Source of the DNA: Aurantimonas aggregata
GTDB lineage: Bacteria > Pseudomonadota > Alphaproteobacteria > Rhizobiales > Rhizobiaceae
Direction of reading: 5' to 3'
Length of the DNA stretch: 64,000 bases
Assembly (NCBI RefSeq): GCF_010500835.1
Contig: NZ_JAAAMJ010000010.1
Coordinates: forward strand, 62,001 to 126,000
The notes beneath the pieces are model-generated. The model made no database searches. It was not told the DNA's origin and saw only the letters and a list, made by a program, of their open reading frames with translations. Every line of letters starts with the position of its first letter. Position 1 is the stretch's first letter. Below, in pieces: positions 17,911-35,166 of this stretch. The translations under genes and the position numbers were made by a program.

Positions 17911-17962
17911 TTGCGAAGGCACCACGCATGATGATGCCTGATCGGTCTTGGAGGATCGGCCA

Positions 17963-18247
17963 ATGACAGCGGTGAAGAAAGCCAGCAACATCAATGTCCG
18001 CATCGCCAGCGACGAGCTGGCGCTGATAAAGCGGGCGGCGGAAGCTTCCGGCAAGAGCCTGTCGAGCTTCGTCATCGAGGCCGCGACGGCGAGCGCCGAG
18101 AAGGAGCTGATGGATCAGCGGTTCCTCCATCTCGACGCGGCGCTGTTCGACTCTGTGGCGGAGACGCTGGCGCAGCCGGCTAGGGTGCATCCAGAACTGG
18201 CGGCGCTGCTTCGGGATGACAGCCAGTGGGCGACTTCGAAGCGATAG
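17963..18247 (+). CDS. DUF1778 (TacA-type) ribbon-helix-helix antitoxin
   Basis: A 94-residue antitoxin of a type II TacAT-like module. The N-terminal ribbon-helix-helix reads KKASNINVRIASDELALIKR, with GKSLSSFVIEAATASAEKEL as helix 2. The C-terminal part (FLHLDAALFDSVAETLAQPA) is the amphipathic tail that in characterised members neutralises the GNAT toxin. ATG 17963 was chosen because GGAGG lies 8 bp upstream; the frame from 17948 has none. Its 3' end overlaps the toxin gene by 22 bp. The position inside a GTA cluster, between terL and portal, is unusual. Confidence 0.9.
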   Translation: MTAVKKASNINVRIASDELALIKRAAEASGKSLSSFVIEAATASAEKELMDQRFLHLDAALFDSVAETLAQPARVHPELAALLRDDSQWATSKR

Positions 18248-18747
18248 GGCTCTTTGCCCCCGAGCCGCTTACCGAAAGCCACAATTTCTCGGACTTTCGA
18301 TGCGGAAGGCCGAGTCTGGATGCGTGGCTGTCGGACAGGGCGCTGACCAACCAGAGCGCGAACTACACGCGGACCTTCGTCGTGCGCGACGCAGGGATGC
18401 GTGTGTGGGCCTATTATGCGCTGTGCGCCGGGATAATCCTGCGCAAGGACATGCCGCGCTCGCAACGGCCACACGGATCGCCGAGCGAGATCCCGATCGC
18501 GCTATTGGCAAGGCTTGCAGTGCACGAGGACCTGCACGGCAAAGGGATCGGAAAGGCGCTTCTGACCAATGCCCTGCGGAATGCCGCTTCCGCGTCGCAA
18601 GCGGTGGCGTTTCGCGCCGTCGTGGTGGATGCGCTCGATGCCGAGGCCGCAGGTTTTTATCAGAAGCTCGGATTTCAGCCGACCCCGATCAGCCCGTTGA
18701 AGCTGATCCTGCCGACGCAGGACATCCTGGCTTCCATGGGGGCCTGA
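18226..18747 (+). CDS. GNAT-family (TacT-type) acetyltransferase toxin
   Basis: A 173-residue toxin partner of the DUF1778 antitoxin. Family members acetylate the amino group of aminoacyl-tRNAs and stop translation. Motifs include FDCRxPSLD-like FRCGRPSLDAWLSDRA (about residues 25-40), LARLAVHEDLHGKGIGKALL (acetyl-CoA pyrophosphate loop, about 93-112) and the catalytic-tyrosine segment AAGFYQKLGFQP (about 143-154). All are present, so the toxin looks active. It begins within the antitoxin gene (22-bp overlap). A strong terminator follows 44 bp after the stop, isolating the module from the portal gene. Confidence 0.9.
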   Translation: MGDFEAIGLFAPEPLTESHNFSDFRCGRPSLDAWLSDRALTNQSANYTRTFVVRDAGMRVWAYYALCAGIILRKDMPRSQRPHGSPSEIPIALLARLAVHEDLHGKGIGKALLTNALRNAASASQAVAFRAVVVDALDAEAAGFYQKLGFQPTPISPLKLILPTQDILASMGA

Positions 18748-24137: not shown

Positions 24138-24551
24138 ATGGTGGCCCAGAAAGGCAAGGACCTGCTCCTGAAGGTGGACGAGGCCGGCAATGGCGGGTTC
24201 GTCACGCTGGCGGGTCTCAGGACGCGGCGCATCGCCTTCAATGCCGAGACGGTCGACATCACCGACGCCGAGAGCGCCGGGCGCTGGCGCGAGCTGCTCG
24301 GCGGGGCCGGGGTGCAGCGCGCGTCGCTGTCGGGCTCGGGCATCTTCAAGGATGCGGCCTCGGACGCGGCGCTTCGGCAGATCTTCTTTGCGTCGCGCGT
24401 CGTGCCGTTCCAGGCGGTGATCCCGGATTTTGGCACGATCACCGGGCCGTTCCAGGTGACGGCGCTGGAATATGGCGGCGAGCACAATGGCGAGGTGAGC
24501 TTCGAGGCGACGCTGGAATCGGCCGGCGCGCTGGTCTTCGCGGCGCTCTGA
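24138..24551 (+). CDS. GTA gp9, major tail tube protein
   Basis: A 137-residue protein of the phage major tail protein (TP901-1-like) family. MVAQKGKDLLLKVDEAGNGG opens it, with FVTLAGLRTRRIAFNAETVD then ITDAESAGRWRELLGGAGVQ as the conserved core and GEVSFEATLESAGALVF as the final strand. ATG 24138 has GAGGAGGAA upstream, one of the strongest ribosome sites in the cluster, fitting a protein needed in many copies. Confidence 0.92.
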   Translation: MVAQKGKDLLLKVDEAGNGGFVTLAGLRTRRIAFNAETVDITDAESAGRWRELLGGAGVQRASLSGSGIFKDAASDAALRQIFFASRVVPFQAVIPDFGTITGPFQVTALEYGGEHNGEVSFEATLESAGALVFAAL

Positions 24552-24553
24552 GG

Positions 24554-24892
24554 ATGGCGGTGAACCGGCGGCGCGGCGAGGTATCCGCGATCATCGACGG
24601 CAGAGAGCGGACGCTCTGCCTGACGCTCGGCGCGCTGGCGGAGCTGGAGGACAGTTTCGCCGCCGACAATCTCGCGGACCTTGCCGAACGCTTCGGCCAG
24701 GGACGGCTGTCGGCGCGCGACCTTATCCGCATCATCGGCGCGGGGCTAAGGGGCGCCGGCGAAACGGCGAGCGAGGCCGAAGTGGCGGCGATGCGCATCG
24801 AGGATGGCGCGGCCGGGGCGGCGAGGGTCGCGACGAAACTGCTGACGGCGGCCTTCGGCGCGCCGGAGGAGAGCCCGCCCCCAAACCCTTGA
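24554..24892 (+). CDS. GTA gp10, tail assembly chaperone (frameshift donor)
   Basis: A 112-residue GTA_gp10 family protein, beginning MAVNRRRGEVSAIIDGRERT and containing LGALAELEDSFAADNLADLA and DLIRIIGAGLRGAGE. In tailed phages the gene pair at this position encodes the G/GT-like chaperones that coat the tape measure. It ends in PPPNP, encoded by CCG CCC CCA AAC CCT, which contains the slippery heptamer CCCAAAC (24880-24886). The next ORF is in the -1 frame and overlaps by 4 bp. A 184-residue fusion with gp10.1 is predicted. Confidence 0.88.
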   Translation: MAVNRRRGEVSAIIDGRERTLCLTLGALAELEDSFAADNLADLAERFGQGRLSARDLIRIIGAGLRGAGETASEAEVAAMRIEDGAAGAARVATKLLTAAFGAPEESPPPNP

Positions 24893-24926
24893 GTGCCGCG
24901 CCGGCGGAAGGCGGCGCCGGCGCGGC
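24865..24926 (+). promoter_or_regulatory. Predicted programmed -1 ribosomal frameshift signal
   Basis: Visible parts in order: SD-like GGAGGA (24865-24870), 9 nt, slippery CCCAAAC in the correct zero-frame phase C CCA AAC (24880-24886), 8-nt spacer, then a perfect 11-bp all-GC stem GCCGCGCCGGC (24895-24905) / GCCGGCGCGGC (24916-24926) with a 10-nt loop. The zero-frame stop TGA is at 24890. This is the textbook bacterial -1 frameshift layout (as in dnaX and lambda G/GT). Confidence 0.75.
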
Positions 24927-25107
24927 TTTTCCCTGGGACGCGGCGATGGCGGCGGGGCTTGGCCATCTGCGGCTCGCCCCCCGCGACTTCTGGGCGATGA
25001 CGCCGCGCGAACTGGCCGCGGCGCTTGGGCCCGTCGGCGTGTCCGCCAGGCAACCGCCGCTGCGCGATGAGCTGGCCGCGCTGATCGCACAATTCCCCGA
25101 TCCTTGA
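24889..25107 (+). CDS. GTA gp10.1, tail assembly chaperone C-terminal part
   Basis: A 72-residue ORF of the short phage family next to gp10 (TIGR02216-like). The core FPWDAAMAAGLGHLRLAPRD then FWAMTPRELAAAL is typical. As a separate gene it would have to use the TTG at 24889 that overlaps the gp10 stop (TTGA). The SD-like GGAGGA is too far upstream for efficient initiation there. The -1 phase and slippery site suggest it is mainly made as a gp10-gp10.1 fusion. Confidence 0.85.
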   Translation: MSAAPAEGGAGAAFPWDAAMAAGLGHLRLAPRDFWAMTPRELAAALGPVGVSARQPPLRDELAALIAQFPDP

Positions 25108-25117
25108 GGGACGATCC

Positions 25118-25690
25118 ATGGAAGATGACGAGACGCTGAGCGTTGCCATCGTCGCCGATACCAGCGGCTTTGCGCAGGCGATGGACGACCTGACGCGCCG
25201 GGCGAACAGCTTCGGCACGGCGATCAGCTCGGCCCTGCGCGGCGCGGTGTCGGGCGGGCGGAGCTTCGACACGGTGCTGCGCCAGCTTGGGCAGAGAATC
25301 TCGACGATCGCACTCGATGCCGCGTTGCGGCCGCTGACCAATCTGGCGGCGAATGGGATCGGCCAGGTGCTCGGCGGGATTGGCGGCGCGGTGGCAGGCC
25401 AGGCGCCGCGCATCCTGCCGTTCGCGCAAGGCGGGGTGGTCGGGGCGCCGACCTTCTTTCCGACCGGCGGAAGGCTCGGGCTGATGGGCGAGGCGGGGGC
25501 GGAGGCGATCCTGCCGCTGCGGCGCGGCGCGGATGGCACGCTGGGCGTCGCGGCGCCTTCCGGCGGCGGGACGGGGCCGTCCATCGTGTTCAACGTGACG
25601 AGCCCAGACGCGGAAAGCTTCCGCCGCTCGGAGGCGCAGATCCAGGCGATGCTCGCGCGGGCGACAGGCCGCGGCCGGCGGGGGCTGTAG
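25118..25690 (+). CDS. GTA gp11, short tail tape measure protein
   Basis: A 190-residue tape measure protein. VAIVADTSGFAQAMDDLTRR is the N-terminal tape-measure motif, and SGGRSFDTVLRQLGQRISTI with ALDAALRPLTNLAANGIGQV is the central part. The C-terminal Gly-rich segment PFAQGGVVGAPTFFPTGGRL is shared with other GTA tape measures. The length is close to, and a little below, the 219 residues I recall for the Rhodobacter protein, consistent with a very short tail. Confidence 0.88.
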   Translation: MEDDETLSVAIVADTSGFAQAMDDLTRRANSFGTAISSALRGAVSGGRSFDTVLRQLGQRISTIALDAALRPLTNLAANGIGQVLGGIGGAVAGQAPRILPFAQGGVVGAPTFFPTGGRLGLMGEAGAEAILPLRRGADGTLGVAAPSGGGTGPSIVFNVTSPDAESFRRSEAQIQAMLARATGRGRRGL

Positions 25691-27649: not shown

Positions 27650-29812
27650 ATGGCGACGATCCTGTTGCAGGCGGCGGGCAGCCTCGTCGGCGGCGTGCTG
27701 GGCGGGCCGTTCGGCGCGATCCTCGGCCGGGCGGCGGGGGCGCTGGCCGGCGCCTCGGTCGATTCCTGGCTGTTCGGCGGCACGACGCGCAGCGAGGGGC
27801 CGCGGCTGACCGGCAGCCGCATCATGCAGGCCGACGAGGGCGCCGGTATCCCGCGCGTCTATGGCAGCGCCCGGGTCGCCGGCCAGGTGATCTGGACGAC
27901 GCGCTTCGAGGAGGATTCCGACACCGAGCGACAGGGCGGCAAGGGCGGCGGCCCGCGCACCGAGGTCACGACCTACAGCTATTACGGCAATGTCGCCGTC
28001 GGGCTCTGCGAGGGGCCGATCGCCGGGATCCGGCGGATCTGGGCGGATGGGGAGGAGCTCGACCTCACCGACATCGTCCACCGCGTGTATCCCGGCGACG
28101 AGAGCCAGGCGGCCGATCCGCTGATCGAGGCGCGGCAGGGCCAGGGCAACGCGCCGGCCTATCGGGGCCTCGCCTATCTGGTCTTCGAGCGGCTGCCGCT
28201 GGAGCGCTGGGGCAACCGCATCCCGCAGATCTCCTGCGAGGTGCTGCGCCCGGTCGGAAGGCTGGAGAACCAGATCCGGGCGATGACGATCATCCCCGGC
28301 GCCAGCGAGCACGGGCTCGACCCGCGCCCCGTGCGCGAGCGGCTGGGGCCGGGCGAGGACCGGCTGATGAACCGCAACATGCTCTACAAAACCAGCGACT
28401 GGTCGGCGGCGATGGACGAGCTCTCCGCGCTCTGCCCGGCGCTGGGGCGCTCGGCGCTGGTGGTCTCGTGGTTCGGCGACGATCTGCGGGCCGGGCACTG
28501 CCGGCTGCGGCCGGGGGTGGAGCTGGCGACGCGGGACGAGGAGGAGAGCTGGCGGGCCGGCGGCGTCGGGCGAAGCGGCGCGCGGCTGATCAGCCGGCTC
28601 GACGGCGGCCCGGCCTTCGGCGGCACGCCGAGCGATGCCGGCGTGTTGCGGGCGATCGCCGACCTGAAGGCGCGCGGGCTCGCCGTCACCTACTACCCGT
28701 TCATCCTGATGGACGTGCCGCCGGGCAATACGCTGTGCGACCCCTATGGCGGGACCGCGCAGGCGGCGTTTCCCTGGCGCGGGCGGCTGACGCTAGACAT
28801 CGCGCCCGGCCGGCCGGGTTCTCCGAATGGTACGGCAGCGGCACGGACGGCCATCGCGGCGTTTCTCGGCGCGGCCGATCCGTCGGACTTCAGCGTCGGG
28901 CCGAATGGGATCGCTTATTCGGGGCCGAACGAGTGGTCCTATCGCCGGATGATCTTCCACCAGGCGCATCTGGCGAAGCTGGCCGGGGTGGATGCCTTCG
29001 TCATCGGGTCGGAGATGCGCGGCCTGACGCAGATCCGGGACGGCGAGGGGCGGTTCCCCTTCGTCGAGGGGCTGATCGCCATCGCCGAAGCGGTGAAGGC
29101 GATGATGCCGGATGCGATCGTCACCTATGCCGCGGACTGGAGCGAGTATTTCGGCCACCAGCCGGCGGACGGCTCGGGCGACGTGTTCTACCACCTCGAT
29201 CCGCTCTGGGCGTCGCCGGCGATCGACGTCGTCGGCATCGACAATTACCTGCCGCTGGCCGACCGGCGCGATGGCGCGGCGGGGACGGACGAGGCGCCGT
29301 CGGACTACGATCTGCCGGCGCTGCGCGCGGGGATCGCGGGCGGGGAGTATTTCGACTGGTATTATGCCAGCGACGCCGACCGGGCGGCCGGGCTGCGCAC
29401 GCCGATCACCGACGAGGCGGCGGGCAAGCCCTGGGTGTTCCGGCCTAAGGACATCGCCAGCTGGTGGGCGTACCCGCATGTCGAGCGGCGCGGCGGCGTG
29501 GAAGTGGCGGGTACCTCGCCCTGGGTGCCTATGTCGAAGCCGATCTGGTTCACCGAACTCGGCTGCCCGGCGATCCACCGGGGGCCGAACCAGCCCAATG
29601 TCTTCGTCGATCCGAAATCGTCGGAAAGCTTCGTGCCGCATTTCTCCGCCGGCGGGCGGGACGACCTGGTGCAGCGGCGGTTCCTCGAGGCGCAGCTCGG
29701 CTTCTGGGACCCGGCGTCACCGGATTTCGCCGCGGCGAACAATCCGGTCTCGCCGCTCTATGGCGGGCACATGGTCGATCCCGGCGCGATCCATCTCTGC
29801 GCCCTTATGTAG
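27650..29812 (+). pseudogene. GTA gp15 (tail tip/host specificity protein), 5' part, truncated by an insertion element
   Basis: The first 716 codons of the approximately 1,294-codon gp15. The N terminus (ATILLQAAGSLVGGVLGGPF) is the usual GTA opening. The GTA TIM-barrel glycosidase-like domain occupies about residues 430-715 (MIFHQAHLAKLAGVDAFVIG, VDVVGIDNYLPLADR-like GIDNYLPLADRRDG, FTELGCPAIHRGPNQPNVF). At 29799 the frame enters the IS element and terminates at IHLCALM. Without the insertion the codons join TG+G to read IHLWTWDAR, continuing at 33432. The product, if made, lacks the whole C-terminal tail-tip half, so gp15 function is probably lost. Confidence 0.92.
29792..29799. repeat. Left target-site duplication
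   Basis: CATCTCTG, identical to 33424-33431. Flanking bases differ on both sides, so the duplication is exactly 8 bp, as expected for IS1595-family transposition. Confidence 0.93.
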
Positions 29813-29824
29813 CAGATGCACCAG
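29800..29824 (+). repeat. Left terminal inverted repeat
   Basis: 25 bp, exact inverse of 33399-33423. Similarity continues weakly inward (TTTCGG versus TCTCGG). Confidence 0.92.
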
Positions 29825-29867
29825 CATTTCGGTAGGCGGAACAGCCGGCTAGCCCGATAATGGGCGC

Positions 29868-30335
29868 ATGGAACGAAAGCACCGCGCCACCCGAACCGAC
29901 AGCTACAAGCTTACCATAGCCGGGCTGCTCACCACACGCGCCGAGATGGCAGGGGAACGTGTCCGGGCCGTCGAGCACCTGGCCGCAGTGGATCGCGATC
30001 TGGGCCACCTAGATGCGGTGCTGGCGATGTTCGGCGTGACGGACGGGCACAAGGTGAAGCCGCTGCAGCGGGCCACCACGCCACGCGCAAAGCGGGCGGA
30101 CGTGCTGGCGCGGCATCGGACCATGCTCGCCGTTATGCGCTCTACAGGAGCCGCCACGACCACCCAGATTGCCGAAGCGGTGACGCCACTGTTCAAGCTA
30201 CACGACGATCACGAGCCGGAACCCGCCGCCGTCCTGTCAGCCGTGCGCAAGATGTTGCACAGGCTGGAGCGACAAGGCGGAGTGGTGCGGGACGGTTGGG
30301 ATGGGGACGCGCGGGTGTGGCGTCTGCAAGGCTGA
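29868..30335 (+). CDS. Passenger gene: hypothetical winged-helix-like protein
   Basis: A 155-residue protein not recognised. The first half is charged and helical (LLTTRAEMAGERVRAVEHLA). The second half, KRADVLARHRTMLAVMRSTG with TTTQIAEAV and then AVRKMLHRLERQGGVVRDGW, reads like a winged helix-turn-helix with a recognition helix and a wing ending DARVWRL. It lies just inside the left end of the element and is transcribed inward. It may regulate the element or be accessory to transposition; neither is shown. Confidence 0.6.
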   Translation: MERKHRATRTDSYKLTIAGLLTTRAEMAGERVRAVEHLAAVDRDLGHLDAVLAMFGVTDGHKVKPLQRATTPRAKRADVLARHRTMLAVMRSTGAATTTQIAEAVTPLFKLHDDHEPEPAAVLSAVRKMLHRLERQGGVVRDGWDGDARVWRLQG

Positions 30336-30456
30336 GGTATGGCGACCGGATTTTGTACGTTGTATGGCGCTCAGCGCGGGGCTAACGCGGGAGCGTATTC
30401 TATGCGCTGCGGGATGCGGGTGTGAGTGAAATTATCTTCACTAGCGATGGCGCGAT

Positions 30457-30687
30457 CTAGTCTTCTAGCGAGGAAGGGTGCTGGCCAAACTCATCGCAGA
30501 GCTTCTGGAGTGCCCAGAACTCGCAACGGTCATCGGTGCCTTCTGTCGGAACGGTGAAAGGGTATCCATCAGGCCCCTTCCACCACTCTGCCGTATTAAG
30601 CGGACCCTTCCCCTCCAAGGGAGAGCAACCCCAGCGTCGGAGCTTACCTTCCCATTGGGATCGGGACAGGAGGCGATTAGCAATCAA
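30457..30687 (-). CDS. Passenger gene: 76-residue hypothetical protein
   Basis: Starts at TTG 30687, 3 bp after the DUF1902 stop, so probably co-translated with it. The sequence (RLLSRSQWEGKLRRWGCSPL, EWWKGPDGYPFTVPTEG, CDEFGQHPSSLED) has no membrane or signal part and no family I know. The tryptophan-rich centre is unusual for random ORFs. The GC content is lower than that of surrounding GTA genes. Confidence 0.5.
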   Translation of the reverse strand: MIANRLLSRSQWEGKLRRWGCSPLEGKGPLNTAEWWKGPDGYPFTVPTEGTDDRCEFWALQKLCDEFGQHPSSLED

Positions 30688-30690
30688 TGG

Positions 30691-30978
30691 TCAGTGGCAA
30701 TATGCGACGTATTCTTTTTGTGTCGGCATGAACGAGCGAGGCTCGACAATGCCGCCATTTTCGAGAATTTCACGTATATTGCGTAAGGGTTCGACTTCGA
30801 TTTCCGCTTTCAGCCGAGCCGACAAAATGGTTTCCATGGCCGGGCAAATGTCCGCCAGAACTCCATCTATGTCCGTGTGGGAAAGCACCAAACCGGGCAC
30901 GTCATCGCTCCATGCTCGCAGCCCGCCGTCTGGGCGAGACTCAAACATGACCGTAACCTTAAATGATCTTTCCGACAT
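30691..30978 (-). CDS. Passenger gene: DUF1902 (HicB-like fold) protein
   Basis: A 95-residue protein with the DUF1902 pattern: SFKVTVMFESRPDGGLRAWS then DDVPGLVLSHTDIDGVLADI, and a C-terminal part naming the residue LRNIREILENGG. DUF1902 shares the partially degraded RNase H-like fold of HicB antitoxins, but no HicA toxin is beside it. The downstream 76-residue ORF is not HicA-like. A toxin-antitoxin role is therefore only a possibility. Confidence 0.7.
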   Translation of the reverse strand: MSERSFKVTVMFESRPDGGLRAWSDDVPGLVLSHTDIDGVLADICPAMETILSARLKAEIEVEPLRNIREILENGGIVEPRSFMPTQKEYVAYCH

Positions 30979-31096
30979 GATATTATCTCTGATCCCGAGG
31001 GATTCCGGCTGAGGATGTGGTCCGTCAACTCACGTCATATGTGTTTCCTTTTAAGTCCGTGTCAATTGAAGTTGCGTTAACGATCGCGTTGGTCGT

Positions 31097-32059
31097 TCAC
31101 CGCTGCCAGTAGCCGCACCATGATCGGCTGATCGGCGACAGCATCGCATTGCCGACCAGCGCGAAGGCGTTGCCGCCGTTGTCGCGGCGACGGTGATCCT
31201 CGCACCATGCGGCGTTCGCAGCGTAGGCGGCGAGGTACTTGGGCGACACGCCGTGGTGCTGGCCTGCGACCATGCGGCGAAGGCGGGAGAAGAAGCTTTC
31301 CACCCAGTTCGTGTGCTTGCCGTGGCCCTCGCTATAGGCTTCCGAGTGATTGATCCGCTCGGTGGGGAAGAAGGCTTCAAGAACGTCCCAGTGCGTCGCC
31401 TCGTCAGCAAAGACGGTGCCGGTGGATGCGACCAGCTCGCGGGCCAGGGCGACGCCCTCGTGCTCGAAATTGCGGACGAAGGTCAGGGTCCGGCCCATGC
31501 GCTGGCGAAGGGCGATGACAACGCGGCGGGTGCCGGTCTGGTGCTCTTTGAGGCGACGGTCGATCCGGTCTTCCTTGCGGTTTTCCGGCTTGATCGAACC
31601 GCCGAAATAGGCGCCGTCGATCTCGACTTCCTCGTCCAGCGTGAAGCCGGCGGTTTCGTTCGCCATCGCCTCGCGCAGCTTGTGGCAGAGAACGAAGGCC
31701 GTCTTGTACTGGCAATCGAGATCGCGGGAGAGCTGCAGGGCGGAGATGCCCTTAACCGCGTTCACGAACAGCGCGATGGCAGCGAGAAGGTCGGTAAAGC
31801 CCATCTTGCGGGAATGAAAGATCGTGCCGCTCGTCACCGAGAACTGGTGATGGCAGGCGGCGCACTTGAACCGGCGGCGGCTGGTGATCTCGTAGCTGTC
31901 GAGGCAGCCGCAACGCGGGCAAACCGGGGTGCCGTTGGTGGAAGCCCAGCGGATCGCCTTGAACTGCTCGTAAGCTTTCTCCTCGCCGGCCTTGTAGATG
32001 GCGCGGATCGAGAGGGTGCGGGCTTTTGCGGAGAGAAGGAAGTGCTGTGCCATTGTCAT
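31097..32059 (-). CDS. IS1595-family transposase (ISXO2/ISNwi1-like DDE)
   Basis: A 320-residue transposase. It has an N-terminal zinc ribbon with Cys47, Cys50, Cys66 and Cys69 (VCPRCG, KCAACHHQFS). The catalytic residues are Asp148 in EVEIDGAYFGG, Asp219 in VFADEATHWDVL and the third acidic/Asn site in HTNWVESFFSRLRRM (Asn251/Glu254). All motifs are intact and no stop or frameshift is seen, so the element is probably active. ATG 32059 follows GGAAACG. It is divergent from DUF6471. Confidence 0.93.
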   Translation of the reverse strand: MTMAQHFLLSAKARTLSIRAIYKAGEEKAYEQFKAIRWASTNGTPVCPRCGCLDSYEITSRRRFKCAACHHQFSVTSGTIFHSRKMGFTDLLAAIALFVNAVKGISALQLSRDLDCQYKTAFVLCHKLREAMANETAGFTLDEEVEIDGAYFGGSIKPENRKEDRIDRRLKEHQTGTRRVVIALRQRMGRTLTFVRNFEHEGVALARELVASTGTVFADEATHWDVLEAFFPTERINHSEAYSEGHGKHTNWVESFFSRLRRMVAGQHHGVSPKYLAAYAANAAWCEDHRRRDNGGNAFALVGNAMLSPISRSWCGYWQR

Positions 32060-32066
32060 CGTTTCC

Positions 32067-32136
32067 AGTGCTTGTGCACTAGATATGATGACATCGCATC
32101 ATCGTGTCAAGGGCTTAAGCACCTTAAATGATGACA
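32067..32136. promoter_or_regulatory. Divergent control region between transposase and DUF6471 genes
   Basis: Contains AGTGC-TTGT-GCACT (32067-32080), an inverted repeat just upstream of the transposase start. Two direct copies of ATGATGACA lie at 32085-32093 and 32128-32136, with a reverse relative (TGTCAT) at 32054-32059. This looks like operator architecture. DUF6471, encoded next door, would be a candidate ligand. Confidence 0.4.
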
Positions 32137-32189
32137 AAAGCCCCGTGGGACGCTACATGCTCGGTAGCGAAACGAGTGGAGCGATATAG

Positions 32190-32414
32190 ATGGTCGAGCG
32201 GACGGACTGGGAAGAGAAGGCGAAGGGCATTCTACGGGGCGAGATGGCCCGCAGGAGCGTGACCTATGCGCAGCTCGTTGAGAAGCTTGCGGCTATCGGG
32301 GTTGAGGAGACAGAACGGAACCTGCGCAATAAGGTGAGCCGGGGGAAATTCACCGCAGGATTCTTGCTTCAATGTCTAGCCGCATTAGGGACGGAACATT
32401 TGCAACTTGGCTAA
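32190..32414 (+). CDS. Passenger gene: DUF6471 protein
   Basis: A 74-residue protein with the DUF6471 pattern: WEEKAKGILRGEMARRSVTY, then AQLVEKLAAIGVEETERNLR and NKVSRGKFTAGFLLQCLAAL. The helices suggest a small helix-turn-helix-like domain. DUF6471 members are often found with transposases and phage-like accessory genes. ATG 32190 has GGAG upstream. The last 43 bp overlap the next gene. Confidence 0.78.
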   Translation: MVERTDWEEKAKGILRGEMARRSVTYAQLVEKLAAIGVEETERNLRNKVSRGKFTAGFLLQCLAALGTEHLQLG

Positions 32415-33298
32415 TCATCGCCATCGGCCTCTCACTTATTGCGTTGGTGGCCTTCACGGTCGCTTCGTCAAAGGGATACCAGCGCGCCTATCAGCAAAAC
32501 GAGGCTGAAAACGCTTCCTATGCTCAGCGTGAAGGCCACTATCGCAGCTGCCTCATGCTGCCCAGCGTCGAGCAGGCGCGGGAGTGCGCCGAAAATGCCC
32601 CCGAAGCAGATCGCGCAGAGAGACGCGCCGAGGAAGATCTGAATGCTCAACGGGAGATGGCGGACTGGGCCGAGGGTGTATTGTGGGCCACGCTGGCTAG
32701 CGTCGGGGTCACTGCCGTCGGCATAGTGTTCGTCTGGCGATCCTTGAACGCCAACACCGCTGCCGTCGACCAAGCGAGGCGAGCCAACGACATCGCTGAT
32801 CAGCATAGTCGTGCTGATCTTAGAGCATGGCTGATCGTGAAGATTAACTCGATCGGCCCGATCTTTCGCGAAAGTGACAATATTTTCGTCAGTGTAGATG
32901 CCAGCATTGAGAACACCGGCCGCTCCCCGGCCACGGATTTGTGCTTTTACATCGATATCGTTTCGCTTTTCAACAACGATCCCAAGCTTGGGCCTCGATG
33001 GTTCGATGGCGCCACAACATCTCGTCGGACGGGCGGAGGAAATGATGCACTCGGACCCAACGAGGTTCGCTCTATTCGGGTGGATTGTGTGGTGCATGAG
33101 AAGGACTTTGCTTCTGCCGGCGAATTTTTGAGCCTCAAATACAAGATGTTCATCGGGGTTGTTTACAGAACCATTATCCCGAACCATGAGTGCTTCACCT
33201 TCAAGGTCCTCGCAATCCAAGGCTCCACAAGCATTGAAAATGGCGACCCGTTCCATGTCGAAGCCAGATGGTGGGATATGGCCTCCAAGATGCGTTAG
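32372..33298 (+). CDS. Passenger gene: two-TM hypothetical membrane protein
   Basis: A 308-residue protein with one membrane helix at about residues 11-33 (FATWLIIAIGLSLIALVAFT) and another at about 105-125 (LWATLASVGVTAVGIVFVW). Between them is a charged periplasmic segment with a Cys pair (SCLMLP, ARECAENAPEADRAERRAEE). The C-terminal 180 residues form a soluble beta-rich domain. It overlaps DUF6471 by 43 bp and probably shares its promoter. Layout resembles phage-exclusion or stress-type accessory membrane proteins, but no function can be assigned. Confidence 0.65.
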   Translation: MSSRIRDGTFATWLIIAIGLSLIALVAFTVASSKGYQRAYQQNEAENASYAQREGHYRSCLMLPSVEQARECAENAPEADRAERRAEEDLNAQREMADWAEGVLWATLASVGVTAVGIVFVWRSLNANTAAVDQARRANDIADQHSRADLRAWLIVKINSIGPIFRESDNIFVSVDASIENTGRSPATDLCFYIDIVSLFNNDPKLGPRWFDGATTSRRTGGGNDALGPNEVRSIRVDCVVHEKDFASAGEFLSLKYKMFIGVVYRTIIPNHECFTFKVLAIQGSTSIENGDPFHVEARWWDMASKMR

Positions 33299-33398
33299 GT
33301 TATTTCCGGTCGCGGCCAGAGCGGAGTACGCCACTACAGCGGCCAGCGTAGCTAGCGCGATCATGCCTCACCGCCCCTCAGCGGACTGACCGCCGAGA

Positions 33399-33423
33399 CT
33401 GGTGCATCTGCTACATAAGGGCG
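33399..33423 (-). repeat. Right terminal inverted repeat
   Basis: 25 bp, exact inverse of 29800-29824, ending GGGCG at the element boundary. Confidence 0.92.
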
Positions 33424-33431
33424 CATCTCTG
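33424..33431. repeat. Right target-site duplication
   Basis: CATCTCTG, matching 29792-29799. Joining after it restores the gp15 reading frame. Confidence 0.93.
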
Positions 33432-35166
33432 GACCTGGGACGCGCGGGCTTATCCGGCGTTTCCGGCCCGAACCGACATCTGGAGCGATGGCGACAACTG
33501 GCGTCGCGGCCACTGGCTGAGCGGTAGGCTGGCGAACGCGCCGGTGGACGCGCTGATCGCGGCGATCCTCGATGACCATGGCATCGGCAACTACGACGTC
33601 TCGGGCGTCGAGGCCTCGGTCGCGGGCTTCGTCGTCTCGGGCCCGGACACGGCGCGGCGCTCGCTGGAAGAGCTGATGCGGCTGACCGGCACGCTGGCGC
33701 ATGCGCCCGGTGGGCGGCTGGTGTTCCGGTCGCTGGCGCGGGTGTCGCCGGCGACGGCGATCGACGCGTTCGTCGACGACGAGGGCGCCTATGTCGAGCG
33801 GCGGCGGGGCGAGGCCGGCGAGACGGCGGAAGAGATCTCGCTGAGCTTTCTCGATCCGGCGCGCGCCTACCAGCCGGGTTCGGCCGAGGCGGCAAGGGCC
33901 GGGGCGGCGCATCCGCGCAAGGAGATCGTCGACCTGCCGGTGGTGCTGGAGGAAGGCGAGGCGCGGGTGCTGGCGGCGGCGATGCTGCAGGAGGCGGCCG
34001 GCGTGTCCGAGACCGCCCGTTTTGCCGTCGCGCCGTCGCTGCTGGGGCTCGAGACCGGCGACGTGGTGACGCTGGCCGAGCGGTCGGGCGAGTGGCTGGT
34101 GACGCGGATCGAGACGGGCGCGGCACGGCGCGTCGAGGCACGGCGCCTGCCGCCGCGCCGACGGGCGATGCCCGACCAGGGGGCGCCTGGACCGGCGCCG
34201 CAGCCGGGCCGGCCGGGGTTGGCGTCCCGGCCGGTGGTGCATCTCCTCGACCTGCCGCTGCCGGATGGCGGCGAGGGGATTGCCGGGGCGCGCTTCGCCG
34301 TGGTGGCGAAGCCGTGGGTTCCCTATGCGATCACGGCCGCCGGCGTCGACGGGCCGCAGGAGCGGCGGGCGACGGCGACGCGCCCGGCGACCGCCGGCAT
34401 TCTCTCGCGGGCGCTGGCGGCGGGACCGGTCGGGATCGTCGATCGGACCAACCGGCCGCGCGTTCGGCTGCATCGCGGCGCGTTGGCGTCGATCTCGAAA
34501 GCGGCGATGCTGGACGGCGGCAATCTCTGCGCCGTCGAGTGCGCGCCAGGTCTCTGGGAGGTGCTGCAGTTCGAGACGACCGAGGAGGTGGCACCGGGCG
34601 AGTTCGAGCTTCGCGGCCTGCTGCGGGCGCAGGGCGGGACCGAGGACGCGATGGCGTTGGGTGCGGAGGTCGGCGCGGCCTTCGTGCTGCTGGACGCCGG
34701 CGCCGGCGACCTCGGGCTGACGAGCCGGGATGTCGGGCGGAGCCTTTCCTGGCGAATCGCGCCGCTCGGCCGGCCGCTGGACGATCCGGCGACGGTGACG
34801 CTTTCGGCGGCCTTGGGCAGCCGCTCGGTGAAGCCGCTGTCGCCGGTGCATCTGCGCTGGGCGTTGGCGGCTGACGGCAGCCTGACGGCGGCCTGGATCC
34901 GGCGGACCCGTGTCGGCGGCGACGGCTGGGACGGCATCGACGTGCCGCTCGGCGAGGAGCGCGAACTGTACCGCATCGAGATCACCGACGGGGCCGGCGG
35001 GCTGCTCGTGCGGGAGGCGGACGGCCCGGCGCTCGTCGTGCCGGCCGGGGAGGTGGCGGCGGCCTTCGGGACGATGCCGGCCGCGCTGACGCTGAGCGTC
35101 GCGCAGGTGAGCCCGCAATGGGGCGCCGGGACGGCGCGGAGCACAGTGATAAGTCGGCTGATCTGA
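33424..35166 (+). pseudogene. GTA gp15, 3' part separated by the insertion
   Basis: Continuation of gp15 from the codons TG|G ACC TGG GAC (WTWDARAYPAFPARTDIWSD) to the stop at 35164-35166, about 578 codons. It holds the phage tail-tip domains: LIAAILDDHGIGNYDVSGVE, QLRPLMRLTGTLA-like EELMRLTGTLAHAPGGRLVF, and the repeat-rich C terminus ending ARSTVISRLI. No start or ribosome site exists near the join; a GTG at 33544 is the first in-frame possibility and has no Shine-Dalgarno. The frame is fully open with no secondary decay, so the disruption is recent. Confidence 0.9.

Follow-up and report, generated by a model that had tools for sequence, protein, structure and literature searches.

How is gp10.1, the second of two short tail assembly chaperone genes in the gene transfer agent (GTA) cluster of Aurantimonas aggregata, translated when it lies in the -1 frame and its only ATG, GTG or TTG before its domain overlaps the gp10 stop? 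Here we compare the junction in the window, the whole 64-kb stretch of DNA analysed, with the corresponding junctions of its relatives. We conclude that the gp10/gp10.1 junction is very probably a -1 programmed ribosomal frameshift signal, giving gp10 together with a 184-residue fusion (112 + 72 aa). This reading follows from a slip site that is conserved and kept in phase, the many relatives that have no usable start codon and the compensatory changes in both of two alternative downstream stems. A first-pass annotation of the window had already proposed a fusion of gp10 to gp10.1 in the manner of lambda G/GT, and the comparison supports that proposal well. Phages are the classic setting for frameshifting in tail chaperone genes, and Xu, Hendrix and Duda reportedly described it in 2004 for lambda G/GT and other dsDNA phages.

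In the proposed mechanism, most ribosomes would read gp10 through to its stop, while a fraction with tRNA-Asn and tRNA-Pro on AAC CCT would slip back one base onto AAA CCC, aided by the stem that starts 5 nt downstream. The slipped ribosomes would go on into gp10.1 and produce the gp10-gp10.1 fusion, the equivalent of lambda gpGT next to gpG, and both products would act in tail assembly as chaperones of the tape measure protein, whose gene (gp11) comes next. We infer the occurrence and efficiency of slippage and the function of the fusion; a chaperone role on the tape measure is suggested by gene position and family names. The features concerned are collected in the table.

Table. Features of the gp10/gp10.1 junction, in window positions
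Feature	Positions	Strand	Details
gp10, upstream tail assembly chaperone ORF, zero frame	24554..24892	+	112 aa; PF11836 Phage_TAC_11, E 2.6e-31
GGAGGA, SD-like, possible upstream stimulator	24865..24870	+	direct reading
CCCAAAC	24880..24886	+	in phase as C_CCA_AAC, overlaps A_AAC_CCT; direct reading
A_AAC_CCT, conserved candidate slippery heptamer	24883..24889	+	AAC CCT would slip to AAA CCC; comparison across relatives
gp10.1, -1 frame ORF	24889..25107	+	72 aa; PF09550 Phage_TAC_6, E 4.9e-20
Zero-frame stop TGA of gp10	24890..24892	+	with 24889 forms TTGA
5' arm element GCCGC..., common to local hairpin and long-range stem	24895..24902	+	111/240 loci
Local hairpin, 5 nt past the slip site	24895..24926	+	arms 24895-24905 / 24916-24926, perfectly complementary
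TCTGCGGC, 3' arm of the long-range stem of relatives	24966..24973	+	in the window 6/8 pairs with 24895-24902

Gene context and sample

The window cluster is of the RcGTA type, with terminase, capsid, tail and Rcc01698-like gp15 genes in order and gp15 split by an insertion. The gp10/gp10.1 pair is flanked by a PF06199 tail tube protein upstream and by a tape-measure-like ORF next (PHROG matches), and PF11836 carries the Pfam name 'GTA-gp10'. An AlphaFold model of gp10 residues 1-100 (pLDDT 82) had no match at E <= 0.001 among viral models or, by Foldseek, in the PDB. The nearest named folds among the viral models include tail assembly chaperones such as A0A8S5PUK9 (TMq 0.67, prob 1.00, E 0.026), with weaker matches to two phage Seuss tape-measure chaperone entries of different lengths (E 0.29 and 0.47). 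Solved structures searched by sequence yielded no convincing relative, Rfam over 24300-25400 gave just two sub-threshold matches, and no tRNAs were found in the 64-kb window.

The gp15 gene is split by an insertion at 29798-33425 that carries an IS1595-type transposase (31097-32059, minus strand) and ends in 27-bp perfect inverted repeats (29798-29824/33399-33425), separating a GTA_TIM part (27650-29812) from an Rcc01698_C part (33544-35166). The GTA particle of this strain is therefore probably defective. Elsewhere in the cluster, a TacA-like antitoxin ORF and a GNAT acetyltransferase ORF, likely a toxin-antitoxin pair, occupy 17948-18747 between a terminase ORF and the next portal-like ORF.

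Relatives were collected via gp10, and loci with a very divergent gp10 escape this search. The gene was detected in 73/100 relatives, 268/394 genomes of the family, 42/290 genomes of the class, 30/40 and 5/6 genomes of two further families and 65/80 genomes of a genus-rich family (f57), of which the junctions read are a subset. A first set of 235 loci with both genes was reduced to 203 distinct loci by merging 32 duplicate junctions (L221 had no gp10.1), and the addition of loci from families f49, f135 and f57 enlarged the set to 262 unique junctions. A later-fetched set contributed 56 new unique junctions, possibly from the same or close species, out of 81 loci with both genes drawn from two phage records and viral contigs (L340 had no gp10.1).

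A conserved candidate slip site

The -1 placement of gp10.1 relative to gp10 holds for the window and for 195 of the 203 distinct loci, although this alone proves nothing because any ATGA, GTGA or TTGA overlap yields the same frame; the start codons, taken up below, are decisive. The last codons of gp10 in the window read AGC CCG CCC CCA AAC CCT TGA. The zero-frame stop follows 3 nt after CCCAAAC, as the first-pass annotation stated, and A_AAC_CCT, which lies 3 nt downstream of CCCAAAC, abuts that stop directly.

Comparison across the relatives singles out A_AAC_CCT. Within the gp10 linker (gp10 domain end to stop), A_AAC_CCN occurs in phase in 96/195 loci, against a mean of 1.7 and a maximum of 6 in 500 codon shuffles of the same linkers, and any in-phase X_XXY_YYZ is found in 128/195 loci against 36.1 in the shuffles (maximum 51). 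The codon preceding Asn-Pro ends in A in 96/103 cases, compared with 7.3% of gp10 domain codons, while spanning ten different amino acids, and the Pro codon of the slip site is CCT in 79/96 loci, compared with 13/140 Pro codons in the gp10 domain; both backgrounds were taken from gp10 domains. As the relatives are not independent, we also counted one locus per genus label, which leaves an A before Asn-Pro in 48/52, a count that can hold one genus twice (by code and by name). All eight loci of the window's genus, among them A. endophytica (L002) and A. coralicida (L009), carry A_AAC_CCY (CCT 6, CCC 2), and the later-fetched loci have A_AAC_CCN in 33/56 and A before Asn-Pro in 33/36. The A before AAC and the CCT bias point to a constraint at the nucleotide level, which a need for AAC CCT to re-pair as AAA CCC would predict, and the comparison argues that the slip site under selection is A_AAC_CCT rather than CCCAAAC.

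Beyond this heptamer, loci with the same phase carry C_CCT_TTN (15), G_GGA_AAN (8), G_GGC_CCN (5) or A_AAA_AAN (2); the heptamers of other lineages include A_AAA_AAG and G_GGA_AAG, the latter being the lambda motif. The tetramer C_CCY alone is left in 35/195 loci, 24 of them with TTGA. Thirteen loci of f135 and f49 (L210, L213, L215, L217, L218, L237-L239, L260-L264) have the putative slip site C_CCT_TTC CCT, which overlaps the Pro-Phe-Pro-Trp codons opening the gp10.1 domain, near which no start codon is listed. Three class-level loci (L223, L224, L225) read AAC CCT TTA, with C_CCT_TTA at or beside the stop; L223 and L224 additionally have an overlapping ATG, possibly a mixed state. In the window's genome, AAACCCT-N5-GCCGC has 4 matches, the other three being counted irrespective of reading frame.

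The available parts of a study of E. coli -1 motifs (PMC4066793) bear on how such a site might perform. Efficient motifs there permit cognate A-site re-pairing, which CCT to CCC should allow and AAC to AAA should not, and the tetramers C_CC.U and C_CC.C shift above background given a stimulator. According to the same passages, CCN A-site motifs are weaker on average than AAN or UUN, motifs with a purine X and a pyrimidine Z also tend to shift less, and A_AA.C_CC.A falls below threshold; modest efficiency is therefore favoured for A_AAC_CCT.

Upstream, an SD-like GGAGGA ends 9 nt before CCCAAAC, as originally noted, but enrichment of such a stretch among relatives appears only mild: it is present in 68/95 loci against a triplet-shuffled mean of 55.7 (sd 3.1), and at eight other upstream offsets in 18-53 of 95.

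Two downstream stems

The 11-bp stem-loop reported in the first-pass annotation is indeed perfectly complementary in its arms, and its 8-nt spacer is correct when counted from CCCAAAC to 24895; from the conserved A_AAC_CCT the spacer is 5 nt. RNAfold pairs 12 bp over 24890-24930 (-31 kcal/mol, z -3.82), and over 24890-24990 the minimum-energy fold contains the local hairpin, as does the centroid fold. At least 10/11 pairs are retained in 8/8 loci of the window's genus and in 23 of the 86 slip loci with a readable FPW anchor, compared with 67/2000 swapped arm pairings. In alignment A3, covariation of the local hairpin is 0.440 against 0.118 when shuffled, with changes on both sides in 8/10 pairs; its 21 rows were hand-picked among well-paired loci, so that its 96.7% is biased upward and 23/86 is the fairer figure. 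Only 1/44 of the later-fetched loci has the local hairpin.

The 5' arm is more widespread than the hairpin. Zero-frame C_CCY-N5-GCCGC accounts for the 111/240 loci given in the table, and the other two frames for 0 and 1. GCCGC stands 5 nt after A_AAC_CCN in 73/96 loci, comprising 54/67 in which the stop is adjacent and 19/29 in which it lies 3-78 nt further on. Since the 5-nt spacing is kept even with the stop elsewhere, the element is tied to the slip site rather than to the stop.

In many other Rhizobiales this element, GCCGCAGC, pairs with GCTGCGGC, the Leu-Arg-Leu codons of gp10.1, at an arm spacing of ~60-100 nt (the twelve commonest distances range from 59 to 104 nt). This long-range stem was spotted after looking at the data, where it is paired 8/8 in 82/136 loci (shuffled maximum 50 in 2000 draws) and fully paired in 17/65 distinct arm combinations (shuffled maximum 11). 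It was afterwards tested on the later-fetched loci, of which 40/45 have it, compared with a shuffled mean of 27.9 and maximum of 35. Controls gave 0-1 for slid partners, 1/33 for no-slip loci and 0/26 for loci with other heptamers. The arms have also changed in parallel, GCCGCATC with GATGCGGC, GCCGCAGG with CCTGCGGC, GCCGCAAC with GTTGCGGC and GCCGCAAG with CTTGCGGC. In alignment A2 (34 rows), long-range covariation is 0.106 against 0.092 (sd 0.005; 1/500 shuffles as high), with changes on both sides in a single pair.

Taken at the level of sequence, the local hairpin is best regarded as real but mostly confined to the lineage near the window, with the long-range stem replacing it elsewhere. 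Minimum-energy windows downstream of all A_AAC_CCN loci showed no excess of folding on average, probably because two structures are mixed, one of them long-range. The 5' arm would have two possible partners, local or distant, which lineages would have swapped; that some may use both as an RNA switch, with the ratio depending on ribosome traffic, is an unlikely though conceivable extension. The distant arm is part of the translated gp10.1 sequence, so on this view a ribosome that had moved on into gp10.1 would unfold the stem for the ribosome behind it, and frameshifting, with it the gp10:fusion ratio and GTA tail assembly, would follow ribosome traffic on the transcript.

Competing explanations, lineages and meaning

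The principal alternative to frameshifting is translational coupling, in which ribosomes would stop at the gp10 TGA and reinitiate at the TTG of TTGA to make a separate gp10.1 and no fusion. The window does have a TTG at 24889, so reinitiation is possible there; it is the only ATG, GTG or TTG in the gp10.1 frame before its domain and, as the first-pass annotation recognised, is poorly served by a ribosome site, the SD-like GGAGG ending 19 nt before it. TTGA is present in 75/195 loci, most no-slip relatives (25/33) place an ATG or GTG in that overlap, and f57 has ATG or GTG starts at or near the junction (30 loci); our tally of starts covered ATG, GTG and TTG. Against coupling, the TTG arises simply from CCT followed by TGA: where AAC-CCY abuts the stop, 20/68 loci have no TTG (CCC-TGA 10, CCT-TAG 6, CCT-TAA 2, CCC-TAG 2), CCT is as common before TAG or TAA (8/10) as before TGA (48/58), and two of the eight genus members have CTG in its place. 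Moreover, 57/195 loci have no ATG, GTG or TTG at all in the stretch that runs from the last in-frame stop to the gp10.1 domain, a further 16 have one solely inside the gp10 domain, and neither the A before AAC nor the stems have any role in a coupling model. We consider coupling improbable at this junction. We regard as very improbable a frameshift in which CCCAAAC, with its 8-nt spacer, is itself the slip site: it is in phase and suitably spaced in the window, but C_CCA_AAN is in phase in just 3/240 loci (two of them with CCCAAAC itself) and in 1/8 of the genus, it should lack the cognate A-site re-pairing discussed above, and GCCGC keeps its distance from A_AAC_CCN instead. CCCAAAC could add slippage in the window strain; both registers yield an identical fusion peptide, and mass spectrometry of that peptide therefore cannot tell CCCAAAC from A_AAC_CCT.

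An intrinsic terminator or attenuator within the operon is a scarcely credible reading of the hairpin. A pattern scan did flag the stem plus TTTTCCCTGG (1 found; shuffles mean 0.4), but the T run encodes the conserved Phe of FPW and in relatives frequently amounts to no more than TTT, the downstream tail genes need the transcript, and the long-range stem that many relatives have instead is not of terminator shape. A different kind of caveat, compatible with frameshifting, is that the signal may be a relic in this strain, where a possibly dead GTA would leave the frameshift free of selection. The IS1595 transposase between the two gp15 halves makes this a possibility to be kept in mind, if the less probable one; the window has kept the signal intact, the other genus members share it, and the question bears on this strain and not on the mechanism.

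Frameshifting of gp10 into gp10.1 is nonetheless not universal in alphaproteobacterial GTAs, since a minority of orthologues have a start overlap instead. The junction comparison proposed in the first-pass annotation thus bore out a phase-conserved slip site and stems, with A_AAC_CCT in place of the heptamer first named, and it also turned up a minority of orthologues lacking the heptamer and stem: 33/195 of the -1 loci have no slip motif, and in 25 of them an ATG or GTG overlaps the stop. Among the remainder, L101 and L212 carry C_CCT-N5-GCCGC away from the stop, by eye, and L125 nearly so. Across the 262 loci, where a slip motif means a heptamer or C_CCY at the stop and loci outside the -1 frame were scored as no slip, 133 have a slip motif without a nearby ATG or GTG, 84 the reverse, 35 both and 10 neither, and slip motif and strong start tend to exclude each other in these sequences. 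By the script's motif rule, 9/262 loci lack a motif as well as a start close to the junction. An independent-pairs tree test of slip motif against absence of ATG/GTG gave a median p of 0.5 with just 6 supported pairs. The fewest slip/no-slip changes on the FastTree tree number 29, from which we claim no count of gains or losses. In f57, perhaps the Rhodobacteraceae judging by its many genera, 30/30 loci shown have a start codon at or near the junction, with a doubtful X_XXY_YYZ in two, and f49 has GTG or ATG overlaps in one genus and C_CCT_TTC in another. In this sample, the A_AAC_CCN signal appears to belong mainly to Rhizobiales.

The arrangement resembles lambda G/GT in having two short ORFs between the major tail protein and the tape measure, the first with a slippery heptamer close to its end and the second in -1. 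It differs in residing in a domesticated gene transfer agent, in its main heptamer A_AAC_CCT, in its two interchangeable stems and in the ATG/GTG overlap used by some lineages. The g10/g10.1 genes of RcGTA (Rhodobacter capsulatus) are a homologous pair by way of PF11836; RcGTA itself lies outside the sample, and the contrast with it comes through the 30 loci of f57, with start codons and no convincing slip site. The dnaX -1 cassette likewise combines a slip motif with an upstream SD-like stretch and a downstream stem. IS3-family elements, in the sections of PMC4066793 available, share the slip motif, the SD-like stretch and a stem 4-10 nt downstream; both systems involve other genes and another motif, whereas the GTA long-range stem lies inside a conserved protein motif.

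In the literature searched on GTA/RcGTA frameshifting, g10.1 and Aurantimonas, with most subscription papers outside its scope, we recognised no description of the gp10/gp10.1 junction. Passages of these papers mention the usual chaperone frameshift for R. capsulatus phages and not for RcGTA (PMC8601537), propose a +1 shift for a Wolbachia phage hydrolase (PMC10299305), note g10.1 as short (PMC9765227), speak of frameshifts in SPP1 only (PMC8718954) and give 7% frameshifting for a phage tail chaperone cluster similar to HK97 (PMC3711429); PMC7296036 had no match for the terms asked. The apparent, though not proven, novelty is a GTA case of the known chaperone frameshift with an unusual heptamer and two interchangeable stems.

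On a practical level, the finding bears on annotation, as two public records list gp10.1 as a separate CDS. The annotated gp10.1 CDS starts 68 nt past the gp10 stop in MW091529.1 (L296) and 44 nt past it in MW462191.1 (L297), and both records have A_AAC_CCT followed 5 nt later by GCCGCAG. More broadly, a frameshift kept in a domesticated virus-like particle would point to strong selection on how these particles build their tails, and the lineages with start codons, standing beside relatives that probably frameshift, offer a natural experiment on whether the fusion protein is important or just the ratio of the two proteins.
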